Assembly: GCA_902589395.1 (NCBI GenBank)
Contig: CACIST010000004.1
Span: forward strand, 1-64,000
Direction: 5' to 3'
DNA from: an uncultured Pelagibacteraceae bacterium
Lineage (GTDB): Bacteria; Pseudomonadota; Alphaproteobacteria; Pelagibacterales; Pelagibacteraceae
DNA length: 64,000 bases
The first letter of the stretch is position 1; each line of letters begins with the position of its first letter. Under the pieces are notes generated by a model. The model saw only the letters and a list, made by a program, of their open reading frames with translations. It did not search any database and was not told where the DNA came from. A program made the position numbers and the translations under genes. Below are positions 17,426-24,859 of this stretch, in pieces.

Positions 17426-17501
17426 GCCCTTGTAGCTCAGTTGGTAGAGCAATTGATTTGTAATCAATAGGTCCGCGGTTCGAATCCGTGCGGGGGCACC
17501 A
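17426..17501 (+). tRNA. trnT: tRNA-Thr(UGU), intact copy
   Basis: GCCCTTGTAGCTCAGTTGGTAGAGCAATTGATTTGTAATCAATAGGTCCGCGGTTCGAATCCGTGCGGGGGCACCA; loop TTTGTAA gives anticodon TGT. Confidence 0.97.
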
Positions 17502-17502
17502 C
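17451..17502 (+). repeat. att-like direct repeat, left copy (3' part of the intact tRNA-Thr)
   Basis: 52-bp exact match to 19002-19053. Confidence 0.95.
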
Positions 17503-17557
17503 TTCCTTAGTAAAATCAACGTTATCTATTTTTGCAAAACTAAAAATTTAATAATTT

Positions 17558-17589
17558 GGTAGCAATGAGTGTTACCATAGTGCTACCAC
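17558..17589. repeat. Left internal repeat array of Thr island (arm-site-like)
   Basis: GGTAGCAATGAGTGTTACCATAGTGCTACCAC: GTTACC and GCTACC spaced 11 bp, plus inverted GGTAGC. Confidence 0.7.
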
Positions 17590-17637
17590 TTTTGTAGACC
17601 AATCAACAGATCATTCATGTTTAATTTTAGATAATTA

Positions 17638-18906
17638 TTAACTAAATACAAAAACTGTAGAGTCTTCTAGCTCAGTAATATTCAGCTTATCTTTTTTTAT
17701 TGATACACTAACATTATTAGCTTCTAAAAAATCTTTGACCTGGGAAGATTTTATTCCATAGTTAGTATTTTCACTCTCTACTCCAAATGCAGCTTTTGTA
17801 TAATCTTTAGATAATTTCATTGTCGCTACTCCTACAAGGCTACCAGAGTCTTTATCAACTATTGGACCTCCACTATTACCTGGATTGACTGTTGCATCAA
17901 TTTGCAACATAGAAGTGTTGTTCTTTATACCCTTAAGTGAGTTTATAATTCCAGATGTAATTTTCAAATCATCACTAATATATTTTCCATAAGGATAACC
18001 AGCTACTAGAATACTCTGAGCTTTTTTTGGAGAGTTATTTGAAAACTTAATATAATTTTTATTTTTTACTTCAACTTTAAGCAATGCGATGTCTAAAATT
18101 TCATCAAACGCAATCATCTTTGCTTCCTTCTCCTTATTTTTAAACATGATCTTGGTATTATTCTCACTTGTTTTTACTACATGATAATTTGTTATCACGT
18201 AACCTTCGTTGTTAACGAAAAAACCAGTTCCAACTGTACCTGTAGCGGGATTTTCATCTTTTGATATAGCTTCTTTTTGTTTTTTGGATTTATTAGAATT
18301 TTCTGATGTACTTTCTTCAGTGTTATCACTAACTTTAGGCGAGCCAGAAGCTACAGATACTAAGTATCCTTTAGCTATGTCATCAACCTGACCAGAATTA
18401 TTTTGATGAACGATCCACGTACTTTCAACCGCTCCTTCTTTTTTAAATTTGCTTCTTAACGTATTACCGTTAAATTTTGTTGAGACCGAAAATACATCAA
18501 GGTCACTTCTAAATATTATTAATTGTTTTTTTAAATTTATTGTATTTGCCAACCCAATACATGTACCCTCTTTAACATATTGTTCTATATGTGCCTTATA
18601 AACTTCTGGCTGAGCTTCATCAGATATTAACAACATTAAAATATCAGCCCACTCTGCTGCTTTAGATAATTTCATGACTTTAAAACCTTTGGACTCAGCT
18701 TTAGATATGTTTTTTGAATCTTCTCGTAAAGCTATTACAATATTACTTACACCACTGTCCTGTAAATTTAATGCATGAGCTTCAGCTTGATTACCAAAAC
18801 CAAATATTGCGATTCTTTTATTGTTAATTAAATCTATTTTTGAGTCACTTTGAGATTTATTATTTTTTGTTTTTTTTTCAGAATTAAAAATATCGAATAA
18901 ACCCAT
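17638..18906 (-). CDS. KARI N-terminal-like Rossmann domain fused to a trypsin-like (HtrA-type) serine protease
   Basis: N-terminus KRIAIFGFGNQAEAHALNLQDSGVSNIVIALREDSKNISKAESKGFKVMKLSKAAEWADILMLLISDEAQPEVYKAHIEQYVKEGTCIGLAN resembles IlvC; C-terminus has TNYHVV, LDIALLKV, NPGNSGGPIV triad motifs. Confidence 0.88.
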   Translation of the reverse strand: MGLFDIFNSEKKTKNNKSQSDSKIDLINNKRIAIFGFGNQAEAHALNLQDSGVSNIVIALREDSKNISKAESKGFKVMKLSKAAEWADILMLLISDEAQPEVYKAHIEQYVKEGTCIGLANTINLKKQLIIFRSDLDVFSVSTKFNGNTLRSKFKKEGAVESTWIVHQNNSGQVDDIAKGYLVSVASGSPKVSDNTEESTSENSNKSKKQKEAISKDENPATGTVGTGFFVNNEGYVITNYHVVKTSENNTKIMFKNKEKEAKMIAFDEILDIALLKVEVKNKNYIKFSNNSPKKAQSILVAGYPYGKYISDDLKITSGIINSLKGIKNNTSMLQIDATVNPGNSGGPIVDKDSGSLVGVATMKLSKDYTKAAFGVESENTNYGIKSSQVKDFLEANNVSVSIKKDKLNITELEDSTVFVFS

Positions 18907-18926
18907 AACTATATTAAATCATATCA

Positions 18927-18948
18927 TTGCTACCATAGTGTTACCAAG
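18927..18948. repeat. Right internal repeat array of Thr island
   Basis: TTGCTACCATAGTGTTACCAAG: same element as the left array (11-bp spacing), 20 bp upstream of the cargo start codon. Confidence 0.7.
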
Positions 18949-19001
18949 TCAAAAATATTTTAGGATTATTGTTGCAAACAAATGTTTATTTAAACTTTTA
19001 G

Positions 19002-19053
19002 AATTGATTTGTAATCAATAGGTCCGCGGTTCGAATCCGTGCGGGGGCACCAC
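19002..19053 (+). repeat. tRNA-Thr 3' fragment (displaced att copy)
   Basis: 52-bp exact copy of 17451-17502 without a tRNA 5' half. Confidence 0.95.
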
Positions 19054-19218
19054 AAATTGTTAAAAAATAATGATTAATAAGTTGGTATCTATCCTTTTAA
19101 ATTTTATTTAATATTTCTTATTATTTAATAATAATTATTGTGAAAGGATTGAGAATAAATTACTTGAGAAGAAAAAAATTTCTTTGAATGTATTTTGAAG
19201 AAATAAATTTATAGGTCT

Positions 19219-19845
19219 TTAATTATTCTTTATATGTGGGAAATGCATCCAACCTGTAACAATATATTTAAGTCCACTGTTTAAAATTTTACCATTATGA
19301 GCATGTGTCCATTCAGCAGGCCAAATTAATGTTTTTCCTATTTCTGGTTTAATTTCTATATCATAATGTGAAAAGTGTGTTGTACCACCATCTTCAACAT
19401 TATTTAGATATGTCATCCATGCAAATAATCTGTGTGATGATGAAATAGAACTTCTTTCGGTATGAACTTTAGCAAAATGTCCACCTGGAGAATATTTTTG
19501 AATATTAAATTTTCCAATATGTACCTCTTTAAACAAACTCTTTAAAAATGGCCACTGGTTTTGGTAATCTTTAAAGCTTTCAAATAAGTTGTTAATATAT
19601 TTATTTAGACATTTAAATTTTTCATTTTTTAAATCATTCGCATTAACCACAATGTCTGTAGTTTTTTTGATTTCTAAATTTTTGCCAGAACCAGATACTC
19701 CGTCTCTTTGTAAATTTCTATTTTCTTCAAAAAAATTTATAATTTCTTTACACAAATCATCATTTTCTAAGTTCCAGGCTCCAATAAAATGTGGATATTT
19801 TTCCTCATTTTTTATTGTGCTTGATCTGATATTTATTCTTTTCAT
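19219..19845 (-). CDS. 2OG-Fe(II) oxygenase, prolyl 4-hydroxylase-like
   Basis: FAKVHTERS...FAWMTYLNNVEDGGTTHFSHYDIEIKPEIGKTLIWPAEWTHAHNG: HxE/D...H...K pattern of P4Hc. Confidence 0.8.
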   Translation of the reverse strand: MKRINIRSSTIKNEEKYPHFIGAWNLENDDLCKEIINFFEENRNLQRDGVSGSGKNLEIKKTTDIVVNANDLKNEKFKCLNKYINNLFESFKDYQNQWPFLKSLFKEVHIGKFNIQKYSPGGHFAKVHTERSSISSSHRLFAWMTYLNNVEDGGTTHFSHYDIEIKPEIGKTLIWPAEWTHAHNGKILNSGLKYIVTGWMHFPHIKNN

Positions 19846-19847
19846 TA

Positions 19848-20393
19848 CTAAATAATTTTAAAATCTTTTTGAGTAAATGATATAACACCCTGTGTTTTAG
19901 CTATTAAGTTTAAACCATGGTTATGTTCATTTAATTTAAGTAATAATTCGCCATATGCAATAATAGTTTTTTTATTATTTGGGTCTAGACTAATAGCTTT
20001 TTTATAAATTTCTTTAGCCTCAATTAATCTACCAAGTTTTTCGACTATTATGCCAAGGTTGCTATAAGCCATAGCATAATTAGGTCTAAGATTTATAGTT
20101 TTTCTTAAACTCAATTCAGCTTCTTTAAATCTTCCTAATGCATGAAATATAATGCCTAAATTATTATAAGCACTTAAATTGTCAGGTTTAAGTTCTATGG
20201 CTTTTTTATAAATTATTTCAGCTTCTTTTAACTTGCCTAATTTTTGTAAGGTGACGCCAAGATTATTATGTGCTTGAGTGTGATTAGGTTCATGATTAAT
20301 TATTTTTTTATAAGTATCTTCCGCCTTTAGAAGTTGGCCATTTTTAAAATTAGTATCGCCTTCCTCAAGTAATTGATTAATATCTATATTCAT
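19848..20393 (-). CDS. TPR repeat protein
   Basis: Repeats AHNNLGVTLQKLGKLKEAEIIYKKAIELKPDNLSAYNNLGIIFHALGRFKEAE. Confidence 0.9.
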   Translation of the reverse strand: MNIDINQLLEEGDTNFKNGQLLKAEDTYKKIINHEPNHTQAHNNLGVTLQKLGKLKEAEIIYKKAIELKPDNLSAYNNLGIIFHALGRFKEAELSLRKTINLRPNYAMAYSNLGIIVEKLGRLIEAKEIYKKAISLDPNNKKTIIAYGELLLKLNEHNHGLNLIAKTQGVISFTQKDFKII

Positions 20394-20477
20394 AATAATA
20401 TAAACATTTTAACACCTCATTAATATTGTGTCGAGATTTGAAATATTATGTAAATAATATTTTTAAACTTTATGTTA

Positions 20478-21623
20478 CTATAATGATTTAGAAGTAATTT
20501 GCTTTTTTGGATCAAAAAATGGTTTCTCTATGACATCACACTTAAAGACCTTATTATCAATAGTAACTTCAATCTCTAAACCGATTTTTGTGTAATCAAT
20601 ATCGACCATACCTAAAGCAATATTTTTTTTTAAACGAGGTGAATATACTGCTGAGGTTACTTTTCCTATAATCTTATTGTCAGACTTTAAAGGCCAATAT
20701 GTAGTATTTGGTCCACCTAACTTTTCACATTTAATATGTAAACCAATTTGTAATCTTTTAACCCCTTCTGCTTTAATTTTTTTAAGTGCTTTTTTTCCTA
20801 TAAAATCTATATCACCATTTAAGTGGACTAAACGATCTAAACCTAATTCATAAGGATTTGTATGAATGTCAGCATCAGCATGATAAGAAAGCATAGCACC
20901 TTCTATTCTTCTTATAGAAGAAGTGTGACCTGGTTTGAGTCCAAATTTTTCTCCAGCTAACATAATTTTTTCATATAGTTCATTTCCTTTTGAACCATCT
21001 CTTAAAAATAATTCATAACCAAATTCACTTGACCAACCTGTTCTTGATACAATTAATGGTATTCCATCTAAATCTAATTCTCTAAACCAATAATATTTTA
21101 AATCTTTTATACTTTCTCCAAATAATTTAATCATGATTTCAGCAGACTTTGGTCCTTGCAATTGTAATGGCGAAACATCTGGCTCAGTTATTTTCACATC
21201 TAATGCTGAGTTAATAGCTACTCCTTGAGCCCATAATAAAATATCACTGTCACCTAAAGATAACCAAAAGTGATTTTCCCCCAAACGTAAAAGAACAGGG
21301 TCATTTAGTACCCCACCTTGTGCGTTTGTAATTAAAACATATTTACATTGTCCAACAGATAATTTTGATAAATCTCTTGGTGTTAATAATTGAATAAATT
21401 TAAACGCATCTGGTCCAGTAATTTCTACTTGTCTTTCAACAGCAACATCACATAAAATTGCTGTTTCAATTAAGTTCCAAAAGTTTTGTTCAGGATCGCC
21501 GAAATCACGAGGTATATACATATGATTATATACAGAAAAACCAGTAGCTCCCCATTTAACAGTTGAGTCAAAATATGGAGATTTTCTAATTTGAGTTCCA
21601 AACCCAAAATTTTTGTTGCTCAT
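20478..21623 (-). CDS. GcvT/aminomethyltransferase-family protein, DmdA-like
   Basis: CDVAVERQVEITGPDAFKFIQLLTPRDLSKLSVGQCKYVLITNAQGGVLNDPVLLRL; RTGWSSEFGYELFL. Confidence 0.8.
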   Translation of the reverse strand: MSNKNFGFGTQIRKSPYFDSTVKWGATGFSVYNHMYIPRDFGDPEQNFWNLIETAILCDVAVERQVEITGPDAFKFIQLLTPRDLSKLSVGQCKYVLITNAQGGVLNDPVLLRLGENHFWLSLGDSDILLWAQGVAINSALDVKITEPDVSPLQLQGPKSAEIMIKLFGESIKDLKYYWFRELDLDGIPLIVSRTGWSSEFGYELFLRDGSKGNELYEKIMLAGEKFGLKPGHTSSIRRIEGAMLSYHADADIHTNPYELGLDRLVHLNGDIDFIGKKALKKIKAEGVKRLQIGLHIKCEKLGGPNTTYWPLKSDNKIIGKVTSAVYSPRLKKNIALGMVDIDYTKIGLEIEVTIDNKVFKCDVIEKPFFDPKKQITSKSL

Positions 21624-22393
21624 TAATTTGTTTCTTTTCTGATCTGTTCTATTTTAATTTTTTTTTGAAGACTTCTATTTGAGTCGTACAGAAGATTGAA
21701 CTTAATTTTTTTATTTATTTTTATAGAAATAATTTTAGCATTTCTTACTTCGTAATTGTCAGCTACAGCACTGATAGGTCTCTTTTGAATGTTTAAATTT
21801 TTAATAATAATTTTTGATTTATCGCTAACTACTCTACCCTTCCATCTTCTTGGTCTAAAAGCACTAATTGGTCTGATAGACAACTTCTTCGAATCTAAGT
21901 TTAATATAGGACCATAAACTGACATATTATAAGCAGTACTTCCAGCTGGTGTAGAAACTAAAATTCCATCTGATACTAATTTTTTTATAATTTTCTGTGA
22001 TCCACTAGAAATTTCCAACGAGGCTGTTTGTCTGCTTTGTCTTAATATAGATACCTCGTTTATTGCAATAGATTTTTTATTTTTATTAAATTTATTTTTA
22101 ACAACCATTTCTAACGGTGAAATTGTGACAGACTTTGCCTTGGACAAGTTTTTTACTGTATTTTTTGATGAAAATTTATTCATTAAAAAACCATAACTCC
22201 CAGCATTTATCCCATAGAAAGGTTTTTTGAATTTATTATACTTTTTCAAAGACGAAAGCATAAAACCATCACCTCCAACAACAATTATTAGATTACATTT
22301 ACCTAAGGATATATTTTTGATTTTATGATCAAGAAAATTTTTAATTTTTTTTGATGTTTTTGTATTATCAAAAAGAATATGTGGTTTGATCAT
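21623..22393 (-). CDS. nadK: NAD kinase
   Basis: IIVVGGDGFMLSSLKKY; YGINAGSYGFLMN; VSTPAGSTAYNMSVYGPIL. Confidence 0.92.
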   Translation of the reverse strand: MIKPHILFDNTKTSKKIKNFLDHKIKNISLGKCNLIIVVGGDGFMLSSLKKYNKFKKPFYGINAGSYGFLMNKFSSKNTVKNLSKAKSVTISPLEMVVKNKFNKNKKSIAINEVSILRQSRQTASLEISSGSQKIIKKLVSDGILVSTPAGSTAYNMSVYGPILNLDSKKLSIRPISAFRPRRWKGRVVSDKSKIIIKNLNIQKRPISAVADNYEVRNAKIISIKINKKIKFNLLYDSNRSLQKKIKIEQIRKETN

Positions 22394-22397
22394 TTAA

Positions 22398-22483
22398 TGG
22401 TGCCCTCGGCCAGACTCGAACTGGCACTCCATAAATGGCAAGGATTTTAAGTCCTTTGTGTCTACCAATTTCACCACGAGGGC
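22398..22483 (-). tRNA. trnL: tRNA-Leu(UAA), intact copy
   Basis: GCCCTCGTGGTGAAATTGGTAGACACAAAGGACTTAAAATCCTTGCCATTTATGGAGTGCCAGTTCGAGTCTGGCCGAGGGCACCA; loop CTTAAAA. Confidence 0.97.
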
Positions 22484-22553
22484 ATTAATCAATTTCATAA
22501 GTGTTTATGCCAATATTTATAATTGAACAAGAGGAATAAGTAAAATTTTTTTA
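22445..22553 (-). repeat. Left copy: tRNA-Leu 5' half and upstream region
   Basis: ttttaagtcctttgtgtctaccaatttcaccacgagggcattaat then diverged similarity. Confidence 0.9.
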
Positions 22554-22563
22554 TTTTATCTCT

Positions 22564-22587
22564 ATATGTACAGGTCGAGTACAGGTT
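22564..22587. repeat. Left internal repeat array of Leu island
   Basis: atatGTACAGGTcgaGTACAGGTt: two GTACAGGT at 11-bp spacing. Confidence 0.75.
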
Positions 22588-22655
22588 ATCCTATATTATC
22601 CTATATAAATATTATTTAAATCTTTAGAGATGGTCTTTTTATTTTTTTAGATAAT

Positions 22656-24575
22656 TTAATTTTTAGCAAGCGATAAAAGTTTCTCACAATTGCCTGTATC
22701 CAATGCATTGGTGCCTTTATAAGTCAACATAAGTTCAAATGCAGTTTCTACAAATGCATCAATTTTATAATAATCAGGGGTATTTTTACTCTTAGTATTT
22801 CTTATTGATATTAATTGCTTCCAAGTTGATCTACATATCTCATAACCAGGTTTTGCTATATAGGTATTTGCCTGATTAGCTTTAAGCATTTTCATATATT
22901 TATCTACTTGGTAAGCTCTTGCGCCCTCATAGTCTGTAAGTTTTTTTAACTGTCCATTTTCAAATATTACGTATGTAAAAGTTACATCTTTAAATTGTAA
23001 TGTTCCTGAACCATGAGGATAATTATTTTTGAATTCACCCCTATAAAGAATGACATTATTTGCTTCAACTAAATCATTATATATTTCTGGGGGTGCATTT
23101 GACATCTCATAAGCAGCTTTACAATTAGTCCATATTGTTGCATTTAAATCACATTTTTCCAAAGGACTTGTGTCAAAAGCTTCTGCATTACCTTTTATAT
23201 AAATAACTCCATCTTTTTTAACTATAAGTTCTTTAGGAATTACTGCCTCTATATTTTTTTTATTGTTTAAGTTTTTTGGATTTTCTGAAACATAAATTTT
23301 ATTACATGTTTGATAGCTGTTAATACCCACATAATCATTAGCTTTTGTTTTAAAGACACTATTCTTAATTTTTGTAATTAAGTCATACATATTATGATCA
23401 TTAACTCCGTTGTAATTATTATCAAAATAATATGCTAGATTGTTCATAGATCTATGAGTAGAAGGAAAATACATATGCGATATTATTTTTTGAAATGAAT
23501 TATCATCTATATATTTAAATTCATAAAATGACAAAGTATCAGAATACAAAACATCTTCTGGAGATTTATGTTTACCTCTACTCCAATATATGCTGGATGC
23601 ATTAAACGTGAAAAATGACTTTGAGTTTAATTTACTCATATTAAAAAGTGGATAATCTAAAGTAAAATTATTAGAACTAAAATTTAGATTTTTTTCATTT
23701 CTTTTAAAAAAATGTTTTGCAAAAAACTTTGGATCACCCTCTAAAATCCCTGCTTCAGCTGTATAAATAACAATATAATCGTCAAATACATTTTGAAATT
23801 CATTTTTTTTTTCTTGATTCATAAATACAGCTTTAAATTGATTAAGGCCATCGTGTGTACTACCCTCTCCACTTAACCATATAGGTGCTAATCTACGAGA
23901 ATTAATATTTGATTTTTGACATTTAAAAATAGATAAATTCTTGTAATCTTTATAATAATCTAAGTTATAAGAGATTTTTTCTTCTTTCTTAGTAACTATA
24001 TTTTTTTTGGTTTCACTGACACTCTCTTTTTTTATTTCTTTATCTCCTGAATTTTGTTTTGATAAATTTTTTGAATTCTCTTTAGAAGATGAAAACGTTT
24101 CTTTAGAGACAATCTCACTAAACTTTGAAGAAAATTTGATATGTAAAATTTCTTTCTGAGCACCCTCTGAACCTGGTCTTTTATCATAGTTATAAATCCA
24201 AGGTTTTTTTGATATTTTTTTAAGATAATACTTTTTTTTATCATTATCAGATATCAATCTTATTTGATTTTTTAATAATCCATGTACTTTCCATGAGCCA
24301 CTTTGAATAATAGTATCACCATTGATTATTTCATAAGTTTTTTCCCTAAATTTATATTCTCTAGATCCATTTTCTGAAATAAGAGTTAAATCATTGTTTA
24401 TAAAAAAATTTTTTAGTTTTTTTCCTTTAATAGCCACTTCAATTTTAAATGTTTCGGCAATATCGGTTGCGGCTTTTTTGATGTCACTTTCTAATTTTTT
24501 AATATCATCATTTGTTTGAGCAGATGTAATTATAAACATAATTATTACTGAAATTTTAATTAACAATTTTTTCAT
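22656..24575 (-). CDS. Exported protein with a MORN-like motif, island cargo, function unknown
   Basis: Signal peptide MKKLLIKISVIIMFIITSAQT; YRGEFKNNYPHGSGTLQFKD. Confidence 0.75.
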   Translation of the reverse strand: MKKLLIKISVIIMFIITSAQTNDDIKKLESDIKKAATDIAETFKIEVAIKGKKLKNFFINNDLTLISENGSREYKFREKTYEIINGDTIIQSGSWKVHGLLKNQIRLISDNDKKKYYLKKISKKPWIYNYDKRPGSEGAQKEILHIKFSSKFSEIVSKETFSSSKENSKNLSKQNSGDKEIKKESVSETKKNIVTKKEEKISYNLDYYKDYKNLSIFKCQKSNINSRRLAPIWLSGEGSTHDGLNQFKAVFMNQEKKNEFQNVFDDYIVIYTAEAGILEGDPKFFAKHFFKRNEKNLNFSSNNFTLDYPLFNMSKLNSKSFFTFNASSIYWSRGKHKSPEDVLYSDTLSFYEFKYIDDNSFQKIISHMYFPSTHRSMNNLAYYFDNNYNGVNDHNMYDLITKIKNSVFKTKANDYVGINSYQTCNKIYVSENPKNLNNKKNIEAVIPKELIVKKDGVIYIKGNAEAFDTSPLEKCDLNATIWTNCKAAYEMSNAPPEIYNDLVEANNVILYRGEFKNNYPHGSGTLQFKDVTFTYVIFENGQLKKLTDYEGARAYQVDKYMKMLKANQANTYIAKPGYEICRSTWKQLISIRNTKSKNTPDYYKIDAFVETAFELMLTYKGTNALDTGNCEKLLSLAKN

Positions 24576-24598
24576 GATTAAGAATTTAGCTTATCATT

Positions 24599-24622
24599 CT
24601 ATGTACAGGTTTAGTACAGGTT
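24599..24622. repeat. Right internal repeat array of Leu island
   Basis: ctatGTACAGGTttaGTACAGGTt: same as the left array, about 25 bp upstream of the cargo start codon. Confidence 0.75.
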
Positions 24623-24748
24623 TTGAGGTATTTGATTACACTTATTTTCTAATCTTAATTGAAAGCTAATTTAAAGTTATGAGATTTTATAGGATGTTTT
24701 AAACTACCTTGGACTAGTATGGACTGACTCACTTGTGAATCCCTCGGC

Positions 24749-24857
24749 TTTTAAGTCCTTTGTGTCTACCAATTTCACCACGAGGGCATTAATGAATTTC
24801 ATGAGTATTTATGCTAATATTTATAATTCAACAAGGTTAATAAGTAAATTTTTTTTA
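24749..24857 (-). repeat. tRNA-Leu 5'-half fragment with upstream region (displaced copy)
   Basis: 45-bp exact copy of 22445-22489 and a diverged extension; no 3' half of the tRNA. Confidence 0.92.
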
Positions 24858-24859
24858 TT

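Follow-up and report, generated by a model that had tools for sequence, protein, structure and literature searches.

We analysed a window of 64,000 nucleotides from an uncultured Pelagibacteraceae bacterium (assembly GCA_902589395.1, contig CACIST010000004.1, positions 1 to 64,000), which is recognisable as SAR11 by rplK, nusG, secE, tuf and a dmdA-like gene. The window carries two small islands, one at a tRNA-Thr(TGT) gene (island 1, 17451-19053) and one at a tRNA-Leu(TAA) gene (island 2, 22442-24859). Comparison with related sequences gives good support to the view that these islands are members of two large, similar families of integrase-less gene cassettes in SAR11 tRNA genes. We consider it probable that they are cassettes unable to move on their own and that the integrases of satellites, which would read matching arm sites at the cassette ends, mobilise them in trans. 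In other words, matching end tags suggest that enzyme-carrying, satellite-like elements move the cassettes and spread phage-defence and surface genes by doing so. Both cassette families were apparently undescribed before, though our search missed much of the paywalled literature, so that an earlier description is possible.

tRNA genes were located with ARAGORN and protein domains with Pfam. As the initial annotation had proposed, ARAGORN, direct repeats and pattern counts confirmed that each island has an intact tRNA, two phased repeat pairs (hereafter, arm pairs) and a displaced tRNA half, and each holds one large minus-strand open reading frame (ORF) as cargo, of 422 aa and 639 aa, respectively. 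The second arm pair, which had been placed 20-25 bp upstream of the cargo start, lies 23 bp from it in island 1, but 28 bp from it in island 2. The claim of one shared architecture holds for the overall layout, although the islands are not identical in kind: island 1 (element length 1.55 kb) lies 3' of its tRNA and duplicates the tRNA 3' half, which is the usual side, whereas island 2 (2.30 kb) lies on the 5' side and duplicates the 5' half together with ~75 bp of upstream DNA. The GTTACCATAGTGCTACCA and GCTACCATAGTGTTACCA pairs of island 1 are the only two matches to their pattern in 64 kb (0.01 expected), and the GTACAGGTNNAGTACAGGTT pairs of island 2, at 22568-22587 and 24603-24622, are likewise the sole matches (0.01 expected). 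Two features at the Leu right end that had been overlooked, the TGGACTAGTATGGACTGAC repeat and the TGTGAATCCCTCGGC core flank, were diagnostic. Neither island encodes a recombinase, in agreement with the initial annotation; the cargo ORFs were KARI_N-Trypsin_2 and MORN-like, and the tyrosine-integrase domain PF00589 had no match in the window's source genome, which is 80% complete.

We then considered comparable intervals in relatives at these two tRNAs. They were common, with similarly placed repeat pairs and diverse cargo, and nearly all were without a satellite-type integrase. In counts that are valid for the core types of the window's islands, the element-side core flank of island 2 was found beside a tRNA-Leu half in 43 of the 397 family genomes searched, including 17 of the 140 near-complete ones, and the right end of island 1 beside a tRNA-Thr half in 50 of 300 genomes of the genus. 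The catalogue comprised 46 Leu segments (median 1.86 kb, 30 of them up to 3.5 kb) and 52 Thr segments (median 1.34 kb, 51 of them up to 3.5 kb). The cassettes were mostly 0.7-3.5 kb long and encoded mostly one to six genes on one strand, so that the expected recurrent family with diverse cargo was found, but its members do not always carry a single gene. All 72 ORFs of at least 100 aa in Leu segments of up to 5.7 kb share one direction, as do 222 of the 243 ORFs of at least 60 aa when both sites are pooled. Tandem arrays of two or three segments were frequent. When satellite-type integrases were used as queries, a match was obtained for one of the 243 segment ORFs, in L134.

Comparison between genomes also revealed recent spread of the cassettes. 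Cassettes L208.0 and L234.1 are 99.9% identical over 1021 bp, with adjoining left flanks of 88.3% identity, and L206.0 and L235.1 are 98.2% identical, with flanks of 81.0%. In three pairs of loci (L234 vs L208, L235 vs L206 and L161 vs L155), one member has an extra cassette inserted exactly at the tRNA, and the identity beyond this cassette is 99.9%, 98.0% and 99.2%, respectively. The same cassette was found at different array positions. Given that near-identical cassettes occur together with precise one-cassette insertions, these results indicate that cassettes spread as intact units, which speaks against mere decay. An empty-site counterpart with the window's right flank, a glycosyltransferase gene, was not present among the retrieved loci or 20 relatives; therefore, the insertion polymorphism is shown in other genomes only.

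If decay were nevertheless the explanation, each island would be the immobile remainder of a satellite or prophage whose integrase was deleted. Integrase-bearing elements at the same site (L134, L276) and elements that appear fused or truncated (L131.1, L220.1) are in line with this. However, the Leu cassettes share a right-end backbone, with a mean identity of 76% among themselves, that the satellites are without (48% against satellites, compared with 45% for shuffled sequence), and the arm copies at both ends still match despite motif differences between elements. The relatives also keep the repeats that random decay products would lack, and the recent transfer of intact integrase-less units to different array positions contradicts decay, which we regard as very unlikely. 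Another possibility is that cassettes spread not site-specifically but by homologous recombination between conserved flanks (the tRNA and the upstream gene) after transformation or transduction. SAR11 bacteria recombine frequently, and the tRNA-derived repeats within arrays could serve such exchange. Nevertheless, the insertions in the three locus pairs are precise at the core and directly beside the tRNA, the same cassette occupies different array positions, and homologous recombination would not require matching arm pairs to be kept at both ends. We assign this explanation a low probability, too.

The arm sites provide a further line of evidence. In most Leu elements, two 8-9-mers spaced by 11 bp occur at about +83 relative to the tRNA end and again at about -145 relative to the core. 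The motif differs among elements and can be GTACAGGT, GTACTGGT, GTGCTGGT, GTGCAAGT, CTTCTAGT, TTTCTAGT, TCTCCTAGT or others; the window's own motifs are GTACAGGT (Leu) and GTTACCA (Thr). The initial annotation had read the differing motifs of the two islands as a sign of different integrases, which is supported and can be refined, as the motif varies between elements within each family too. The left and right arms of Leu elements (20 elements of one type) matched at 16.8 of 19 positions, compared with 12.2 after permutation, and those of Thr elements at 14.4 of 18 positions, compared with 11.9; in both cases, none of 100,000 permutations reached the observed value. Given that the copies at both ends change in parallel, it is likely that one protein reads all of them, since this pattern would otherwise be hard to explain. 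One might instead regard the arm repeats as sites for a host protein or as elements that control the cargo gene (operators or promoter elements), considering that 23-28 bp separate the right pair from the downstream start codon of the cargo in the window. However, a matching pair is located at the other end irrespective of the cargo (in Leu elements, at ~83 bp from the tRNA), and in satellites these motifs are found around the integrase gene and extend into it. Nor would such a variety of motifs be needed for a host protein, and we find this explanation extremely improbable.

To return to mobilisation by satellite integrases, candidate helpers were found, the closest of them in records of uncultured Pelagibacteraceae. 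Among the viral contigs that share the tRNA-Leu half are elements of ~7.8-9 kb that encode a 545-549-aa tyrosine-integrase-like protein beside the att site, as well as a large second ORF that in L276 matches primase-type families. The right arms fall inside the start of the integrase gene in these satellite-like elements, and in L003 the att region is present at both contig ends, in a circle-like manner. The satellite L276 (single-cell genome AG-414-K15) is complete at 8.8 kb and occupies the same tRNA-Leu, beside dmdA and NAD kinase genes as in the window. Its left arms are TGTGCTGGTCTTGTGCTGGT, an identical 20-mer occurs at both ends of cassette L140, and the core region is 96% identical. 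The satellite L134 (AG-903-K07) has the TTTCTAGT arms of cassette L136.1, with which it also shares an identical 48-bp core region. For the Thr family, the viral contig L002 has a 328-aa integrase beside a tRNA-Thr half, and its GCGGACA arms are those of cassette L200.0. L003, L134 and L276 presumably resemble virion-encapsidated integrative mobile elements (VEIMEs). The Leu-type integrase occurred in 4 of 347 genomes, so that cassettes outnumber it, and relatives of the Thr-type integrase in 12 of 337. An alignment-based viral search with the Leu integrase recovered only the four already known elements. Trans-mobilisation as first suggested is still the best reading, with satellite-like elements as candidate helpers, although we infer the mobilisation step itself; what the sequences show directly is the families and their boundaries, the matching of the arms, the presence of these arms and cores on integrase-bearing elements, the precise insertion polymorphism and the recent spread between genomes. 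It is also conceivable that trans-mobilisation occurs with temperate pelagiphages using the same tRNA-Leu, not satellites, as the main helpers; the viral contigs L004, L009 and L015 have a tRNA-Leu half, other core flanks and, by eye, an integrase-like coding end. However, these flanks differ from the TGTGAATCC type of the cassettes, whereas the satellites L134 and L276 have the core, the 10-bp repeats and the arm motifs in common with them, and we consider phage helpers unlikely.

Several points weigh against mobilisation by satellite integrases. We found no integrase associated with the arm sequences that the window itself carries (GTACAGGT; GTTACCA), and among four viral contigs with GTACAGGT pairs, none had a related integrase and three were without a tRNA-Leu half. 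No excised circle or junction read was seen, and one cassette right-end pattern had no match in the viral collection IMG/VR. The helper integrases are supported by Pfam, but some of them weakly (L003 falls below the cut-off and the L262 integrase has no match). In a minority of segments (L131.1, L222.0, L223.0 and L227.0) the left and right arms do not match; these are perhaps fused neighbouring cassettes or recombined. Integrase binding at the arms is deduced from their position and covariation. In addition, the catalogue was built with patterns modelled on the window's two islands, and the integrase screen used eight query integrases, so that unrelated integrases could escape it.

Other viral contigs were considered and rejected as the window's helper. 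L060, L061 and L062 have GTACAGGT pairs, yet no related integrase and no tRNA-Leu half; a related integrase is also missing from L011, which shares these arms and has a left cassette end. The 5129 bp of L011 comprise this left cassette end with GTACAGGT, followed by several large-phage-like genes, one of which is PhoH-like by eye. Matches to GYTACCATAGTGYTACCA in viral contigs were taken as chance, given that they had no tRNA-Thr half and that near-identical contexts recurred. Separately, the tRNA-Leu array L262 (G182) has a 10-kb integrase-bearing segment beside the tRNA and then a cassette of 2.9 kb whose two ends have GTGCTGGT arms; the integrase in this tandem array is a further, more distant one.

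If satellite integrases do mobilise the cassettes, the process may be pictured as follows. A cassette would consist of one or a few cargo genes enclosed by an attP-like backbone (a core with half a tRNA, and 11-bp-phased arm-type sites on both sides). The tyrosine integrase would come from a satellite-like element in the cell, and the arm-binding domain of this integrase would recognise the arm motif of the cassette. The integrase, probably with the recombination directionality factor of the satellite, would excise the cassette as a circle and insert it into tRNA-Thr or tRNA-Leu at the core in the anticodon loop. The cassette-borne tRNA half (in the Leu family together with a replacement upstream region) would keep the tRNA intact, and repeated insertion beside the tRNA would produce tandem arrays. 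Satellite or phage particles, vesicles or transformation may serve as the vehicle between cells. More tentatively, this may be an integron-like, tRNA-based system, in which an allelic arm-site key at both cassette ends is read by matching phage-satellite integrases, so that the cassettes would be hyper-satellites hitching on satellites that exploit phages. If this speculation is true, the arm key would also define which two ends pair in tandem arrays, and restriction, protease and pilin genes would be passed around within SAR11 by this system.

Table 1. Coordinates of the features of the two islands in the window
Feature	Position	Strand	Evidence or remark
Intact tRNA-Thr(TGT), target of island 1	17426..17501	+	ARAGORN
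attL-side copy of 52-bp Thr repeat, anticodon arm to tRNA 3' end	17451..17502	+	100% identical to 19002-19053
Left arm pair of island 1, GTTACCATAGTGCTACCA, 11-bp phase	17571..17588	+	Similar position in other Thr cassettes
Cargo ORF of island 1, 422 aa, KARI_N domain fused to Trypsin_2 domain	17638..18906	-	Pfam PF07991 1.7e-41, PF13365 6.3e-28
Right arm pair of island 1, GCTACCATAGTGTTACCA	18929..18946	+	Phased repeat
Conserved Thr-family right-end backbone, ACAAATGTTTATTTAAACTTTTAG	18978..19001	+	Recurs beside Thr half in 50/300 genomes
Displaced tRNA-Thr 3'-half copy, attR side	19002..19053	+	52-bp direct repeat
Intact tRNA-Leu(TAA), target of island 2	22398..22483	-	ARAGORN
attL-side copy of 114-bp Leu repeat, tRNA 5' half and ~75 bp of upstream (promoter) DNA	22442..22555		91% identical to 24746-24859
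Left arm pair of island 2, GTACAGGTCGAGTACAGGTT	22568..22587	+	Phased repeat
Cargo ORF of island 2, 639 aa, apparent N-terminal signal peptide (by eye), one weak MORN repeat	22656..24575	-	MORN 1.1e-4, just under Pfam cut-off
Right arm pair of island 2, GTACAGGTTTAGTACAGGTT	24603..24622	+	Phased repeat
10-bp-phased repeat TGGACTAGTATGGACTGAC adjoining core, putative excisionase/accessory site	24710..24728	+	Counterparts in satellites L134, L276
Conserved element-side core flank TGTGAATCCCTCGGC	24734..24748	+	Type seen in 43/397 genomes; identical in satellite L276
Displaced tRNA-Leu 5'-half copy with upstream flank, attR side	24746..24859		114-bp direct repeat

Inside both ends of Leu cassettes we also noted an inverted repeat, about TATCCTATAAAATCC / GATTTTATAGGAT, which in the window lies at 22587-22602 and 24683-24695.

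Next, we compared the cassettes with known systems. Cis-mobilizable elements (CIMEs) are described as decayed relatives of integrative and conjugative or integrative and mobilizable elements that are moved in cis. Like these, the SAR11 cassettes are bounded by att sites at both ends, have no recombinase of their own and accrete in tandem, and they would need the integrase of a related element, for which the satellites with the same arms and cores are candidates. They differ from CIMEs in that they make up a large family that has a backbone of its own, is marked at both element ends by a motif code and has recently spread independently. Integron cassettes and clusters of attC sites lacking integron integrases (CALINs) resemble them as short units of one or a few genes in one orientation, arranged in arrays and served by an integrase in trans (PMC11389934); however, the SAR11 cassettes have a tRNA half-site and arm sites at both ends instead of attC (no search aimed at attC sites was made), insert into tRNA genes and would depend on satellite-like integrases.

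Tycheposons are 4-200 kb long and have a tyrosine recombinase (PMC10872708). The likeness to tycheposons and VEIMEs extends to marine bacterial hosts, tRNA targets, cargo and the proposed involvement of a tyrosine recombinase (PMC10803314, PMC10872708), and the window islands are likewise integrated at tRNAs with partial tRNA duplication. In contrast, they encode no tyrosine recombinase and are shorter, as are the families (medians 1.9 and 1.3 kb). Phage satellites have their own integrase and excision factors (PMC10803314). With them and the phage-inducible chromosomal minimalist islands (PICMIs), the cassettes have in common that they are minimal marine elements with phage-defence genes that depend on others (PMC10803314), but no satellite-type integrase was found in the SAR11 cassettes; no search aimed at excision factors was made. 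As for virion packaging, besides the right-end pattern without an IMG/VR match, the left end of L011 has the window's arm motif, which is no proof of packaging. The proposed cassette mechanism is similar to that of tycheposons and satellites, despite these differences in their defining features.

The nearest published observation that we found concerns Candidatus Actinomarinales, in which flexible genomic island 1 (fGI1) has gene cassettes with tRNA direct repeats (PMC7771536). These cassettes are also small, located at tRNAs with a partial tRNA repeat at the end and found in streamlined marine bacteria, but they belong to another phylum, and the accessible portion of that report describes no integrase source, arm sites, helper or mechanism (PMC7771536). 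The ssrA islands of Dehalococcoides are similar in their tandem arrangement at an RNA gene, their 3'-end repeats and an integration module in only some of them; they differ in the serine recombinase DsiB and a six-gene integration module, and no co-varying arm pairs are described in the accessible text (PMC3146451).

The arm motifs may represent a code, readable from the sequence, by which the integrase that moves a given cassette can be predicted. Because such a code predicts integrase-cassette pairs, the mobiliser of integrase-less islands becomes a directly testable question. SAR11 ranks among the most abundant known groups of bacteria and has streamlined genomes, and to our knowledge few mobile elements have been recognised in it. 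If a common cassette system operates at two of its tRNAs, this would account for the gain and exchange of phage-defence genes (type I, III, IIG and IV restriction; Mokosh-like), genes for secreted proteases and type IV pilin-like genes in SAR11.

Finally, we examined the cargo. It includes type I, IIG and III restriction systems and Mokosh-like helicases, as well as MrcB_N-HNH endonucleases, an autotransporter and a polysaccharide lyase. Nine cargo groups were present at both tRNAs, the smallest of which may rest partly on a common leader, and 126 cargo proteins had no relative in the set. In the cargo protein of island 1, a ketol-acid reductoisomerase NADPH-binding domain is fused to a trypsin-like protease domain, which is an unusual combination. 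The protease part matches the RT-protease and Avs1b defence models, and the protein clusters with the trypsin-type cargo of seven other cassettes, spanning both tRNA sites. Type IV pilin-like cargo genes had 26 members, which possibly form variable surface structures. Cassettes filled with one to six such genes (N_methyl motif) were common to both tRNA sites, including L218, L200, L208, L222, L227 and others at tRNA-Thr and L146 at tRNA-Leu. A similar N-terminal leader, MKKLLGIVVLGLL, was seen on many different secreted cargo proteins (L126, L140, L154, L165, L200, L217 and others), as if it were a common export leader. We also found a 104-aa DUF3764 protein in eight cassettes from both tRNA sites (L139, L158, L163, L201, L216, L221, L231 and L237).

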